Position numbers and translations under genes: made by a program
Virus record (IMG/VR): IMGVR_UViG_3300025759_000082
Coordinates: 1 to 64,000 of that record
Strand: one strand, 5' to 3'
Source: a virus
DNA length: 64,000 nucleotides
The notes under the pieces: model-generated
Seen by the model: only the letters and a program-made list of their open reading frames with translations
Databases searched by the model: none
Told to the model about the DNA's origin: nothing
Shown: piece after piece, positions 2,434-54,122 of the stretch
Layout of the letters: every line of letters starts with the position of its first letter
Numbering within the stretch: the first letter of the stretch is position 1

Positions 2434-2847
2434 ATGCCTTGCGAAAACTTGGTCGGCGTGAAGAACATCATGCTGTCCTTCTACGACTGTGACACGGAGA
2501 CCCGTGTCGGTCCGATCTCGCACAAGCTCGCCACGGACGAAATCCCGATGTGGAAGGCGTGCGAGTGGAACCCCGAGGCTCTGCCGGGCGGCTATACCAA
2601 GCGCGTCGCCAGCAACGCTTCGGCCGAAATGTCGATCATCCGCGACAAACGCATCCCGCTTTCCTACTATCAGGGCTGCGCTGCTATCGACGTGCAGGTC
2701 GAATACCTCAACGGCATCGTCATGACCGGCCTGGCCGGCGGCGTCATCGGTGAGGAGCGTTCCGACACGCACCAGGTCGATCTGGAACTCTCGTTCCGGA
2801 CCGTCGACGAACTCCTGCCGCCCGGCGCTCTTGCTCAGGCGGCGTAA
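2434..2847 (+). CDS. Tail tube protein
   Basis: 137 residues, immediately downstream of the sheath, matching the size and position of Mu gpM/tube. Composition is beta-rich with alternating hydrophobic residues ('QVDLELSFRTVDELL' near the end). An AAAGGACAGG site precedes the ATG. It contains four Cys. Assignment rests on synteny and size rather than a diagnostic motif. Confidence 0.75.
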   Translation: MPCENLVGVKNIMLSFYDCDTETRVGPISHKLATDEIPMWKACEWNPEALPGGYTKRVASNASAEMSIIRDKRIPLSYYQGCAAIDVQVEYLNGIVMTGLAGGVIGEERSDTHQVDLELSFRTVDELLPPGALAQAA

Positions 2848-2854
2848 CAAAGAA

Positions 2855-2884
2855 TTGTACTTCAGGGTATAACTGGGGTACAAT
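2855..2884 (+). promoter_or_regulatory. Sigma70-like promoter in the tube-chaperone gap
   Basis: TTGTAC, 18 bases, TACAAT. The spacing and -10 are good (5 of 6), and the same -35/-10 pair occurs upstream of the HNH gene on the minus strand (56046-56075). The predicted start, about 2891, falls at the foot of the first hairpin of the candidate RNA. Confidence 0.5.
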
Positions 2885-2888
2885 GGAA

Positions 2889-2980
2889 ATCGAGGTCGGC
2901 TGGCCTCGATAGATCGCGCGGTTTCTCCTTGGTTCTGCTGCGATCCGTGCCGGCGAGCGTGCTGCCTCAGGCTCGCCGGC
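2889..2980 (+). ncRNA. Candidate anti-Shine-Dalgarno small RNA
   Basis: Three hairpins follow the promoter. SL1 pairs ATCGAGG (2889-2895) with CCTCGAT (2904-2910). SL2 pairs GATCGC (2912-2917) with GCGATC (2940-2945). SL3 is a perfect 10-bp GC-rich stem, 2949-2958 with 2971-2980. The SL2 loop carries GTTTCTCCTTGGTTC (2921-2935), the exact 15-base complement of the leaders of minus-strand genes starting at 40480 and 45234, and it matches 8-12 bases of about a dozen others. SL3 has no U tract, so termination or processing there is unproven. CU-rich-loop anti-SD RNAs are known in rhizobia and staphylococci; a phage version aimed at its own early genes is inference. Confidence 0.45.
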
Positions 2981-3020
2981 ATGTCCCTATTCTGAGGCAC
3001 TCTGAGGCAAAGAGGCAGCT
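2949..3020 (+). promoter_or_regulatory. Switchable pseudoknot leader of the tail chaperone
   Basis: The loop of the SL3 hairpin contains GCTGCCTCAG (2961-2970). Downstream are two tandem CTGAGGCA copies (2992-2999, 3002-3009) and then GAGGCAGC (3012-3019), which contains the ribosome site of the gene at 3021. Each can form 8 bp with the loop. The loop could therefore sit on either decoy or on the ribosome site, giving a translational on/off element. Confidence 0.45.
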
Positions 3021-3626
3021 ATGAGAATCGAAACGGATAAGGGTGCAGTTTTCGTCGGCGAAACGCAGATCGATCACTTCACCGTGGAACCTCTGTCGTT
3101 CACCGGCTTCGCAATCTGCGTGAATAAGGCCAACGAAGAAGTCGGACCGAACGAGAACCTTACGAAGTACCTTCAGCGTGAGCGCATCCTGCGTCAGGTC
3201 AAGGCTCACAAGAAGGACGGAACGGTCGTCCCAATGACGGCCGAGCATCTGCTCAACATGCCCCTCGCCTATGGCAAGGTGTTCACAAGTCAGCTGCTGA
3301 AGGACACTTCTCCGGTTGGCGAAATTCTCGAAAGCGGGGATGGTATCTCTGCCCCGCTTCTCTATCGGCTTGGCACGCCGATCAAGACCGGCACCGACGA
3401 CAAGGAGATCACGGAGCTCGAATTCCAAGCCAAGACCTTTGGCGACATCGAAGATATCCTGGCGGCGGAGAACCACGTCGAGAAAACCCTGAAGATGATC
3501 GAACTGCTCGGTCGTCCCGTGGGTGATTTCGATCTCCTGACTCTCCCCTCCTGGGCTCTCGATCAGATCACGATCGTCGACGGCTCAAACCTGATGAACA
3601 GGGTTCTCCCGAGTTTTTTCGAGTAG
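3021..3626 (+). CDS. Tail assembly chaperone, short form
   Basis: 201 residues, between tube and tape measure, where contractile and lambda-like phages encode the chaperone that loads the tape measure. No catalytic motif is expected or seen. It ends right after a slippery heptamer, allowing a longer frameshifted form. The ribosome site AGAGG lies in the predicted pseudoknot-controlled leader. Confidence 0.75.
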   Translation: MRIETDKGAVFVGETQIDHFTVEPLSFTGFAICVNKANEEVGPNENLTKYLQRERILRQVKAHKKDGTVVPMTAEHLLNMPLAYGKVFTSQLLKDTSPVGEILESGDGISAPLLYRLGTPIKTGTDDKEITELEFQAKTFGDIEDILAAENHVEKTLKMIELLGRPVGDFDLLTLPSWALDQITIVDGSNLMNRVLPSFFE

Positions 3627-14567: not shown

Positions 14568-16430
14568 ATGGAAAACATGTTTGGCAACCGCAGTTATGCC
14601 ATCTATGAAGGGCTCTGGCATGCCTATGAAGATGGCACGCTGATCGACACTGGCACCGGAGCCGAGACGCTCTACAACGACGATATCCAGGCATATCGGG
14701 ACGGTCTCGACGACAACCTTCGTGATCGTCCTCCGATCCATGCCTTCGCACTGGGCGACCAGATCAAGAACCTGTACGTGCATCACGGCCAACGTCTGCT
14801 CACGACCCTCGGTTACTACGAGCCGAACGACGGAGGGTGGGGAGTCTACGAAAGATCGGATACCCAGCCGGCTGAACCCGGATGGGAACAATCGCTCGAT
14901 GGTTCCTACTGGCGCTTGACCGGCGATACGGTCTATATCGAGCAGTTCGGCGGACGCCCCAACGCTGGTTACGCGACCGCTGCAGTCGACGCGGCAACGG
15001 AGTATCTGCGCCAGAAGGGCGGCGGCACCCTGATGCTGCTCCATGGTCAGTACGCCTACAAGAATACTCAGTACGAGCGCACTCAGGGCATCAAGATCAG
15101 GGGCAAGGGCACCTTCCTGTCGATCCTGGCTCAGGACACGGGTGGCCATGGCATCGTGGTCGAAGGCGATCAGTCCGGAACGAAGGCTTCTTACGGTTTC
15201 GTGATGGATGATCTGTCGATGACGGCGGTGTCGTCGCAGCCGACGGGCGGTGCTCACGTCATCGCTGTCGCGGTCCAGGAAATGTCGATCAGGAACGTCT
15301 GCTTCCTGAACTACTACCGCGCCATCCAGATGTCCAACTGCCAGGGACCGCTGGTCAAGCAAATCCACAACGTGAGCTTCATCTCTCCGACCGGTACGTC
15401 GCCGATCGGCGGCTCGGCCTGTATCTATCTGCAGGGCATTCTCGGAGCTCCCGGCACCGGCTTGACCGAGACGGTACATATCTCCGATTGTCGCGGTGGT
15501 GGCACCGGAACGCAGTACTGCGTCATCGCCGACGGTATCGACCAGGTCCATGTTTCCAACTCCCATTTCTGGGCGTCGCAGGAAGCTGTCCTGAAGATTT
15601 CGTCGACGCAGTGCAACGTCTACAACTTCATGTCGTCGAACTCCACCTGGGAAGCCATCAACGGCCACGCCCAGTACGCGGTTCTGATCGACCTGGTCGG
15701 CGTGACTGCGCACAGTATCCAGTTCAATGGGGATCAGTTCCTCAATGGTGCGCAGTCGGCGGTCTGCGTTCGTGGTGCGGCTTCGAAGTATATCACGTTC
15801 TCGAACTGCCACACGATCCAGGCGATGTTCATCGGCTACCAAATCCACGGCGGAAGCCACATCATCATCGACACGCCGTCGTTTATCGATGGCAATATCT
15901 CGGAGAACGGCAGTGGTTTCTCTGCCCACATCGAGATTGGTGATGGTGTTACGGCTGGCCCGGACGAGGTCCAGATCATCGCTCCGCAGTCATCCCAGGA
16001 GTTCTTCGCTTCGTTGGTGAGCTTCGGCTTGAACGTTCGCAGTGGAACGAACCTTTCACTCTTGGGCGGTCGGTTCAAGGATGTCGTCACGGAACTCAAC
16101 TCCAACGTTCCGGGTTCGGCTCTCCGCGTTACCGGCTACAATGCCGTCAACGACAACGTGTCGTCCAACAGTGTGGCGACCATCAATGTTCCGCTTTCGG
16201 CGGAGCGTCTGTCCATCACCGGAAACGGGGCAGTCAGCACGATCAACGGCATGTACAAGGGGCGCAAGCTCCAGGTATATATCGCGGATGGCTGCACTCT
16301 GAACAACGGCGCCGGGAACCTTCTCCTGGACGGCGCCGCCAATTGGGCTGCCCCGGCTGGCTCGTATCTCTTCCTCGAGTACGACCATATCGCGAACAAG
16401 CTCATTGAACGCGGCCGTCGCGCCGCATAA
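14568..16430 (+). CDS. Tailspike with pectate-lyase-like beta-helix
   Basis: 620 residues; start chosen at the ATG behind GGAAGAAGG. 'VYIEQFGGRPNAGYATAAVDAATEYLRQKGGGTL' is the classic entry to a right-handed beta-helix (pectate-lyase superfamily: F-G-x-x-x-D/N-G...T-A-A). Long runs of beta-helix rungs with 'ISIRNVCF', 'VHISDCRGG' and 'VHVSNSHF' fill residues 180-480. Such spikes bind or depolymerise surface polysaccharide. The C-terminal ~80 residues form a separate beta cap. No catalytic triad can be fixed by eye. Confidence 0.82.
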   Translation: MENMFGNRSYAIYEGLWHAYEDGTLIDTGTGAETLYNDDIQAYRDGLDDNLRDRPPIHAFALGDQIKNLYVHHGQRLLTTLGYYEPNDGGWGVYERSDTQPAEPGWEQSLDGSYWRLTGDTVYIEQFGGRPNAGYATAAVDAATEYLRQKGGGTLMLLHGQYAYKNTQYERTQGIKIRGKGTFLSILAQDTGGHGIVVEGDQSGTKASYGFVMDDLSMTAVSSQPTGGAHVIAVAVQEMSIRNVCFLNYYRAIQMSNCQGPLVKQIHNVSFISPTGTSPIGGSACIYLQGILGAPGTGLTETVHISDCRGGGTGTQYCVIADGIDQVHVSNSHFWASQEAVLKISSTQCNVYNFMSSNSTWEAINGHAQYAVLIDLVGVTAHSIQFNGDQFLNGAQSAVCVRGAASKYITFSNCHTIQAMFIGYQIHGGSHIIIDTPSFIDGNISENGSGFSAHIEIGDGVTAGPDEVQIIAPQSSQEFFASLVSFGLNVRSGTNLSLLGGRFKDVVTELNSNVPGSALRVTGYNAVNDNVSSNSVATINVPLSAERLSITGNGAVSTINGMYKGRKLQVYIADGCTLNNGAGNLLLDGAANWAAPAGSYLFLEYDHIANKLIERGRRAA

Positions 16431-40010: not shown

Positions 40011-40480
40011 CAGTTCGGCCGATAGTTGAGATGGTCCATGTCGAAGTCCATGCGGGACAGGTCGATCAGGAAGAAGCCGCTCTCGCTAGGAATGTTGCCC
40101 TTCAGATGAAGGTCTTCAGCGAAGTTCGCCATGGAAGGCATCGTGTCCAGGAAGTGCGGGATCGAACCCATGCCCTTCGTCGACTGGCCGACCATCTCGA
40201 TGCGCTGGATCACCTCGTAGTGGTAATGCTTCGACAGGATCGAGAGGAAGAACCGAGCGTTCTCGGAAATGGCGACGATCGCGCCAAGCGGCGTGATGAT
40301 GGTGTTGGCCTTCATCTCTTCCCACACGTACTTGGAGGCGAGCAGCCAGTAGACCTCGGCGTTTGGACCCAGGTCCTCGGTCACGGGGATTTCCTTTCGG
40401 TTCTCCGAGTGTTCGAGGATGAGACCCGCGATGTACAGTCCCTGGGACTCGGACAGGCAGACATCGTAGTGTGCACGCAT
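40010..40480 (-). CDS. Hypothetical protein with the full early leader
   Basis: 156 residues. The leader GAACCAAGGAGAAAC (40485-40499) is fully complementary to the candidate RNA at 2921-2935. Helical core 'YWLLASKYVWEEMKANTII', 'ARFFLSILSKHYHYEVIQRI'. Unknown. Confidence 0.65.
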   Translation of the reverse strand: MRAHYDVCLSESQGLYIAGLILEHSENRKEIPVTEDLGPNAEVYWLLASKYVWEEMKANTIITPLGAIVAISENARFFLSILSKHYHYEVIQRIEMVGQSTKGMGSIPHFLDTMPSMANFAEDLHLKGNIPSESGFFLIDLSRMDFDMDHLNYRPN

Positions 40481-40519
40481 AGTCGTTTCTCCTTGGTTCG
40501 TAGATCATTCTACGTGACT

Positions 40520-44452: not shown

Positions 44453-44473
44453 AGTCGTTTCTCCTTGTTGGTC

Positions 44474-44736: not shown

Positions 44737-45234
44737 TTAGTTGTGGAAGTTCTTCCAGCCGATGATGATGAAGCCGGCCGCCGCGTTGCAGAACGTATCC
44801 TGGGACCAGGACCAGCCGCAGACGTTCCATGTCTCCGAATGGTTGTTGGGATTCGGTAACTCGTCGGTGCGCTGCCAGCCGATCGTCCAGTACGGATCGT
44901 ACGAGTCATCGAACGAGGTGTTGCCGGCGGTGATATCCTGGTTGGGGAGGACGAAGAGCCGAAGCATCCTGTCGTCCTTCGGTGCCGTCTCGAGCGCCTT
45001 GAAACCGTATTCCGGAACATAGGCGCGGAACAGCGCCTCGCGCTTCGCCGTATCGATCTCGCTGGTCGCGAACGGTCCCGCCATGTATTCGATACCGGGG
45101 CCGAACGTACAGACGTTGGCTTCTTCGTTCTCGATCATCACGCCGTACTGATTGTTGGGCGTCACGTAGACCATGCCTTCCATGCCCAACAAAGCGTTGC
45201 GCAAATGTGCACGGGACAGATTTCCTGTCGTCAC
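44737..45234 (-). CDS. Hypothetical protein with the full early leader
   Basis: 165 residues from a GTG immediately after GAACCAAGGAGAAACGAC, the second leader with a full 15-base match to the candidate RNA; an upstream in-frame ATG lacks a site. 'LETAPKDDRMLRLFVLPNQD' and 'WTIGWQR', 'NVCGWSWSQDTF' resemble small phage proteins of unknown function. Confidence 0.65.
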   Translation of the reverse strand: MTTGNLSRAHLRNALLGMEGMVYVTPNNQYGVMIENEEANVCTFGPGIEYMAGPFATSEIDTAKREALFRAYVPEYGFKALETAPKDDRMLRLFVLPNQDITAGNTSFDDSYDPYWTIGWQRTDELPNPNNHSETWNVCGWSWSQDTFCNAAAGFIIIGWKNFHN

Positions 45235-45284
45235 GTCGTTTCTCCTTGGTTCGCGGGCCATGACCTGTGTGGTCTGGCAATTCT

Positions 45285-51262: not shown

Positions 51263-51507
51263 CGTGCGGCAGCCGCATCAACCAGCTTGCGCAGCTCTTG
51301 GTGAACCGCGTCGAACTCAGCCCGCTCGTCGACCAGGCCCTCCCAGACCTTCCGCCACTGGTCCTTGGTCGTGGCGTCGGTGCACCGGCCCATGGCCCGG
51401 GACGCGTTGTCCACGCGTGCGTCGAATTGGGTAGCCTTGTCCCGCGCAAGGAACAGGAGATGGTTGCGCAAGCTAGCGAAGCCATCCACAATCTCTGCAT
51501 CAGTCAT
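51259..51507 (-). CDS. Small helical protein
   Basis: 82 residues from the second ATG, which has proper spacing from ACCAAGGAGA. Helix-rich, ends DAAAAR. Unknown. Confidence 0.6.
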   Translation of the reverse strand: MTDAEIVDGFASLRNHLLFLARDKATQFDARVDNASRAMGRCTDATTKDQWRKVWEGLVDERAEFDAVHQELRKLVDAAAAR

Positions 51508-51582
51508 GGTCATCTCTCCTTGGTCTCATCAGCTGCCGCATTACGGCAGGACGCGGCCGACCGTAGCCAGCCGCGTTTCGAC

Positions 51583-52074
51583 CTACTCCTCGCCGTCGTC
51601 GCCGTCTTCATCAGCCTCGGGCGGCGCCGTGTAGCCCTCGACGTGCGTCAGGCCGAACTCTTCCATCTTCTTGCGGTAGTAGGCGAAGAGGGAAGCCGGT
51701 GCGATCCGCGACACGACGTAGGAGTCGGCGATCGCATGTTCCTGGATGAACGGCCCGGTGTACGCGATGCCCGGTTCCATCTTGTCGCGCATCCAGAAGA
51801 GGGTGCGCTGGGCCTGGTTGGGCAGCTTGCCGATGCTCTTGTCCTTGACCGCCGCGTCGAACACCTCGCGGTTCAGAGCGTAGAACTTCCGACGCCACGG
51901 GACGTTCCCGCTTCGGCCGACCCGCCGGATGGGCTGGGGGATCATGAGACCGTTGTCGGCCTGGACGCGCTCGACGCCGAGATCATCGACCACCTTGGTC
52001 GGGGCCGGCGGCGTCTCCATGACGACGGGAGGGGTGGCAATCATCGCTTTGCGGTTCTGATTTCGGGATGCCAT
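51583..52074 (-). CDS. Hypothetical protein, ordinary-composition paralogue
   Basis: 163 residues behind GAAGGAGAAAC. Core 'RSGNVPWRRKFYALNREVFD', 'VKDKSIGKLP', 'LFAYYRKKMEEFGLTHVE' is shared with the gene at 54535-54933. Ala-rich, normal phage codon use, disordered N-terminus and acidic C-terminus. Function unknown. Confidence 0.7.
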   Translation of the reverse strand: MASRNQNRKAMIATPPVVMETPPAPTKVVDDLGVERVQADNGLMIPQPIRRVGRSGNVPWRRKFYALNREVFDAAVKDKSIGKLPNQAQRTLFWMRDKMEPGIAYTGPFIQEHAIADSYVVSRIAPASLFAYYRKKMEEFGLTHVEGYTAPPEADEDGDDGEE

Positions 52075-52198: not shown

Positions 52199-52375
52199 TT
52201 ATTCGGCCGGCGCCCACTGAGCCGGCGTGATGGCGAATTGGAAGTCCTTGTCCGAGTCGTCTTCGATCTCGCGGATCATGCGGTCGACCAAGACCGACAC
52301 GTGCTCGTGCTCCGCCGTGAGAATGGTGACGGCTTCGTCATCCCGGATGTTCAGTGCGGTAAGAGCAAGCTTCAT
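52199..52375 (-). CDS. Small acidic protein
   Basis: 58 residues behind TAGGAGAG. 'LTALNIRDDEAVTILTAEHEHVSVLVDRMIREI'. Unknown. Confidence 0.55.
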   Translation of the reverse strand: MKLALTALNIRDDEAVTILTAEHEHVSVLVDRMIREIEDDSDKDFQFAITPAQWAPAE

Positions 52376-53954: not shown

Positions 53955-54122
53955 TTAGTCGTCGACCCCGACCTCTTCCTTGATGTCCTCGAGGAAGTCG
54001 ACCGTCTCCTGGAGGAGGGTACGGGTCGGTCCGTGTTCCTCCCTCTTCACCTCGTTCTTCACCGACTCGAGGAGACGTCCGTGGTGGAGTTGGATCAAAC
54101 CACACAGTTCTTCCATCGTCAT
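53955..54122 (-). CDS. 55-residue alanine-free protein
   Basis: ATG behind GAACCAAGGAGAGTAC (12-base match to the candidate RNA). 'MEELCGLIQLHHGRLLESVKNEVKREE', then an acidic end. Has no alanine, as its DNA lacks GpC. Unknown. Confidence 0.6.
   Translation of the reverse strand: MTMEELCGLIQLHHGRLLESVKNEVKREEHGPTRTLLQETVDFLEDIKEEVGVDD

Follow-up and report, generated by a model that had tools for sequence, protein, structure and literature searches.

Phages require many copies of the tail tube protein and few of the chaperone and tape proteins, all from one operon, and control of the tube-to-chaperone ratio has mostly been discussed in terms of frameshifting and the strength of the Shine-Dalgarno (SD) sequence. 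Hairpins at the ribosome-binding sites (RBS) of phage T4 illustrate how mRNA structure near the RBS controls initiation, and small RNAs that act in trans against SD sequences occur in alphaproteobacteria. The c4 RNA of phages P1 and P7 is located upstream of its target on the same transcript. It is an antisense RNA directed against the RBS region of a phage mRNA; its complementary bases are likely to lie in hairpin loops, and its specificity differs between phages (PMC12197685). In the case of timP, intramolecular pairing occurs near the RBS and the resulting pseudoknot is reported to be essential for translation (PMC11228461).

The window analysed here is a stretch of 64,000 nt taken from a virus record of 67,412 bases, whose relatives include the Agrobacterium phages Milano, OLIVR4 and 7-7-1 (Schmittlotzvirus) and the Synechococcus phages Ssp-JY38 and Yong-L2-223. 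The hairpins under study occupy the gap that separates the tail tube gene from the tape assembly chaperone gene (Table 1). In Milano, the tube homologue is annotated as a virion-associated protein and is encoded directly 3' of the sheath gene; in the window, a sheath PHROG match is found at 851–2365. Minus-strand genes, early-type ones included, span approximately 18 to 56 kb, the labels "early" and "late" being assigned from gene content and strand. Folding reproduced the three consecutive hairpins of the original prediction, and no target was found for the first of them. The promoter that had been placed immediately upstream did not hold up as well: it is weak, it was not called in a promoter scan of the stretch, and the same bases fold into a hairpin. 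As a whole, the stretch between the two genes is best explained, and with fair likelihood, as the tube gene's 3' untranslated region together with the chaperone leader, acting as an antisense RNA.

Table 1. Features of the tube-to-chaperone region and of the two best-matched early leaders (positions in the window)
Feature	Position	Strand	Details
Tail tube gene	2434–2847	+	Milano gp21 homologue; 48.5% identity to Milano 15550–15957
Promoter-like TTGTAC-18-TACAAT, or 12-bp hairpin	2855–2884	+	8/12 consensus positions; folds as hairpin
Hairpin 1	2889–2910	+	fold
Hairpin 2, candidate trans anti-leader loop	2912–2945	+	loop 2922–2934; antisense stretch 2921–2935
Hairpin 3, conserved anti-RBS loop	2946–2983	+	13-bp stem; loop 2959–2970 = GTGCTGCCTCAG
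Target repeat R1	2992–2999	+	CTGAGGCA; pairs with 2963–2970
Target repeat R2	3002–3009	+	CTGAGGCA; pairs with 2963–2970
Target site R3	3012–3019	+	GAGGCAGC; overlaps SD GAGG; pairs with 2961–2968
Tape (tail) assembly chaperone gene	3021–3626	+	38% identity to Milano tape assembly chaperone
Early leader GAACCAAGGAGAAAC	40485–40499	-	15-nt match to hairpin 2 loop; predicted -16.0 kcal/mol
Early leader GAACCAAGGAGAAAC	45238–45252	-	15-nt match to hairpin 2 loop; predicted -17.3 kcal/mol

The original prediction had overlooked the loop of hairpin 3, which is complementary to three sites (R1, R2 and R3) in the chaperone leader, just 5' of the gene. Corresponding intergenic regions of relatives were collected from annotated phages and from IMG/VR by means of tube and chaperone profiles (bacterial genomes, searched with profiles, yielded no relatives), and hairpins were picked by stability alone, the leader being ignored. 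The apex of the strongest hairpin proved complementary to at least two leader sites in 19 of 20 tube-to-chaperone regions, which amount to fewer than 20 independent cases because some of the phages are close relatives. In the sole exception, L066, the strongest hairpin has no match, while another hairpin matches with 7 and 6 nt. The summed loop–leader score was 767, as against 409 ± 50 with leaders swapped between phages (0 of 20,000 permutations), and a cross-matrix of loops and leaders from ten phages was close to diagonal, with at least six clearly distinct sequence classes. Furthermore, when some 2350 hairpins on both strands of 11 genomes were scanned, two perfect 7-nt downstream sites were found for this element only, in eight genomes.

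The matched sequences change quickly from phage to phage. Milano carries the loop GCACCA and two copies of TGGTGC in its leader, 7-7-1 and OLIVR4 carry GCACCAC and two copies of GTGGTGC, and JY38 carries TTTCCTGTG and two copies of CACAGGAAA. Among the metagenomic relatives, the loop TTGCCGA faces three copies of TCGGCAA (L025), CCTTGC faces two of GCAAGG (L021) and GTGCCG faces two of CGGCAC (L020, L022, L023, L072 and L075), while L122, L125, L128, L129, L133, L134 and L136 display variants with CAGGA-like sites. In L122, L128, L129 and L133, G-U replaces Watson-Crick pairs, and the retention of such pairs points to RNA rather than to protein-bound DNA. In the phages listed, the SD-proximal site falls roughly between positions -22 and -1 relative to the start codon, in most phages overlapping or touching the SD, and the paired loop bases mostly adjoin the stem on its 3' side, an arrangement seen in H-type pseudoknots. 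There is thus strong sequence-level evidence for RNA pairing of the loop with the chaperone RBS, and we regard the loop-to-leader pairing as very probably real. This pairing, and not the hairpin 2 match described below, appears to be the conserved function of the region.

This tail type can do without the element, since in many related contigs the tube and chaperone genes abut or the hairpin lacks complementarity. In L024, a GIY-YIG-like ORF (2948–3547) is situated between the hairpin and the chaperone gene, and although hairpin and target are consequently some 600 bases apart, an 11-nt loop match (CCGAGCAAGGA) is found at the chaperone SD, which is compatible with pairing over a long range or in trans, or with an insertion that happened recently. 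At the same place in L069, another ORF (MFIATKIRLYPK...), which we take to be possibly TnpB-like, follows the tube gene.

We infer that the direction of the effect is repression rather than activation, and pairing of the hairpin 3 loop probably represses the chaperone gene. The loop would engage a single leader site at any time, in cis, forming an H-type pseudoknot in which the paired bases adjoin the stem, and would hinder 30S binding at the chaperone gene; the hindered initiation would leave tube protein in excess of chaperone and tape protein, all from one operon. In some phages most tube transcripts may, in addition, stop at the terminator-like hairpin. Given the U-tract that follows it in Milano, OLIVR4 and 7-7-1, truncated tube mRNAs would likewise contain the loop and could be active in trans.

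Other roles for the same bases have to be weighed against repression by pairing. Loop and repeats might simply be copies of a site in DNA that a phage regulator recognises, operators being commonly built from short repeats 5' of a gene. However, the inverted copy is located at a hairpin apex, G-U pairs are tolerated, and every copy would need a joint change of specificity in each phage; we consider a DNA site without RNA pairing very improbable. Equally remote is the proposal that hairpin 3 is a mere terminator or 3' end stabiliser of the tube gene with incidental complementarity. A U-tract does follow the hairpin in Milano, OLIVR4 and 7-7-1, but several phages, this one included, are devoid of it (here, no U-tract follows hairpin 3, and no intrinsic terminator was called), and both the permutation and the genome-wide controls argue against incidental complementarity. 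A role in which pairing activates or gates translation, through a standby site or an alternative structure with the two repeats representing two states, is less far-fetched yet still improbable: tandem repeats would permit one upstream and one SD-proximal pairing, and the timP pseudoknot sets a precedent as it is reported to be essential for translation (PMC11228461), but the proximal site, which in most phages overlaps the SD or abuts it, is one where pairing is expected to keep the 30S subunit from binding.

Regarding the known systems, the best reading is that the hairpin 3 element works like the P1 c4 RNA yet is unrelated to it and not a member of RF01695. Both would be phage antisense RNAs in which loop bases face an RBS region with specificity that differs from phage to phage, and the feature that marks a c4-like element, a loop complementary to a downstream RBS region and covarying with it, is found here. 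In contrast to c4, which targets the antirepressor (ant) mRNA, the present element targets the tail assembly chaperone, and it consists of one loop against tandem repeats, 3' of a structural gene. The RF01695 covariance model gave no matches in positions 2700–3150 of the window at E ≤ 10, 13 related loci likewise had none at E ≤ 0.5, and an Rfam search found nothing in the hairpin element. Similarly, intramolecular pairing near the RBS is shared with timP and the T4 structures, whereas here the anti-RBS bases lie in the loop of the preceding gene's terminator-like hairpin, there are two or three equivalent targets, and the matched sequence is fast-changing. No description of such an element was found in the open-access papers searched. 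Sequences that are matched and yet change rapidly recall the specificity groups known from antisense-controlled plasmids and from P1/P7 immunity, and a covarying loop-to-RBS element offers a testable RNA mechanism in the cultured phages Milano, 7-7-1 and OLIVR4.

Hairpin 2 was the subject of the original prediction, according to which its loop is antisense to the leaders of many early genes. Much of the underlying pattern was borne out: GTTTCTCCTTGGTTC (2921–2935) is exactly antisense to both leaders of Table 1, contiguous 12-base matches at 54122 and 32041 are real, most of the other named leaders match over 10 bases, and the best match among late plus-strand leaders is 8 bases. The loop proper is 13 nt long, within GTTTCTCCTTGGTTC, and a weak 2-bp inner stem is possible. 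In total, ten early leaders are matched by at least 10 bases (two exactly, about eight over 10–12 bases); genes were called with a simple caller and a small number of start sites may be misplaced, such as that of the gene with leader 44457–44471 (an 11-nt match). For the genes behind the two 15-nt target leaders, neither Pfam nor PHROGs returned a function. Accessibility-corrected pairing energies, which include opening costs, were likewise unequal, with values below -8 kcal/mol predicted for 10 minus-strand genes versus one plus-strand gene (p = 0.0008).

The complement of GTTTCTCCTTGGTTC occurs 14 times in the window with up to three mismatches, where 1.84 occurrences are expected, and none of 100 shuffles reached 14 (maximum 7). 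When the core TCTCCTT was kept fixed and the flanks were permuted, the number of leaders matched by at least 10 bases exceeded chance (p approximately 0.0025), as did the summed excess (p approximately 0.001), while at a threshold of at least 8 bases p was 0.13. In a genome-wide 16-mer scan of both strands, 2917–2938 was the only non-leader locus to reach at least six leaders with at least 10 nt; with the requirement lowered to 9 nt a second locus draws level, and at 8 nt it is surpassed by nine 16-mers. Judged by these comparisons, the match goes beyond an SD effect and a chance origin is unlikely. However, three of the leaders matched over at least 10 bases, of genes starting near 51507, 53471 and 53880, end in GACC, the strand of a hammerhead-like stem II, and these matches thus have a second possible cause; stem II may account for part of the flank common to the matched leaders.

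The claim that one RNA silences many early genes is accordingly upheld in its antisense match, which is beyond chance, and weakened by its poor promoter and by the relatives: at the tube–chaperone intergenic region, none of ten genomes (Milano, 7-7-1, OLIVR4 and seven metagenomic genomes) has an excess of trans anti-leader matches, so that the early-gene match is particular to this phage. The 15-mer GTTTCTCCTTGGTTC was found at 71 loci in IMG/VR, and among the non-leader loci no other clear hairpin displays it save on contigs of the same phage; contigs 3300007542 and 3300007540 carry the identical sequence and hence give no independent evidence. Milano, OLIVR4 and 7-7-1 also possess a TCTCC-loop hairpin upstream of the terminator-like hairpin. 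Covariation of this loop in trans with the leaders of these three phages did not rise above core-only permutations (p 0.14 to 0.58). A high-scoring anti-leader 16-mer was noted in the L134 genome, inside a called gene.

With these points on either side, an action of hairpin 2 in trans on early leaders is put forward tentatively, as possible. Hairpin 2 would become available on the same transcript or through processing, would pair with early leaders and would dampen leftover early translation once the late genes are on. It resembles the alphaproteobacterial anti-SD RNAs in its UCUCC loop complementary to SDs and differs in that the match reaches 15 nt and fits phage early leaders, being a candidate known from sequence. 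That the main role of the region is that of a free small RNA, silencing many early genes through this loop, is doubtful. An antisense match to ten leaders that is unique genome-wide, the early-over-late bias of predicted pairing and the confinement of the early-leader match to the hairpin 2 loop all favour such a role; against it stand the weak promoter, the ten relatives without an equivalent signal at this place, the three matches ending in hammerhead stem II and the fact that the conserved feature is the hairpin 3 pairing. We also regard it as unlikely that the whole picture holds, i.e. a widespread class of phage RNA elements in which a fast-changing loop, borne by a hairpin in the 3'UTR of the tube gene and always matched by tandem RBS repeats, sets the tube-to-chaperone ratio, with a second loop in one lineage that shuts off about ten early genes in trans.

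Several further elements were observed around the early leaders. In Milano (49131, 54097 and 54458) and at the equivalent positions of 7-7-1 and OLIVR4, the SD of early leaders lies within a hairpin, e.g. GGGTGTCTC...GCGGAGACACCC. In the window, an extended -10-like element, TGATATAAT, recurs a few tens of bases 5' of early minus-strand leaders (e.g. those of the genes that start at 45234, 50098 and 53087). Hammerheads flanking phage genes are known (PMC3088659), and six type II candidates were identified here, at 51518–51583 and in the leaders of the minus-strand genes that start at 52375, 52806, 53471, 53880 and 54429, all with Rfam scores below threshold. Their layout comprises GAAAC, two closed stems, CTGANGA and a matched 4-bp stem II (in the order listed, GGTC/GACC, AAGC/GCTT, GATC/GATC, GGTC/GACC, GGTC/GACC and GGAC/GTCC), and in every case the candidate ends immediately at an early-gene SD. 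A candidate of the same layout is present at position 40378 of the L136 genome (G008), where the GACC end is followed by AAGGAGA.
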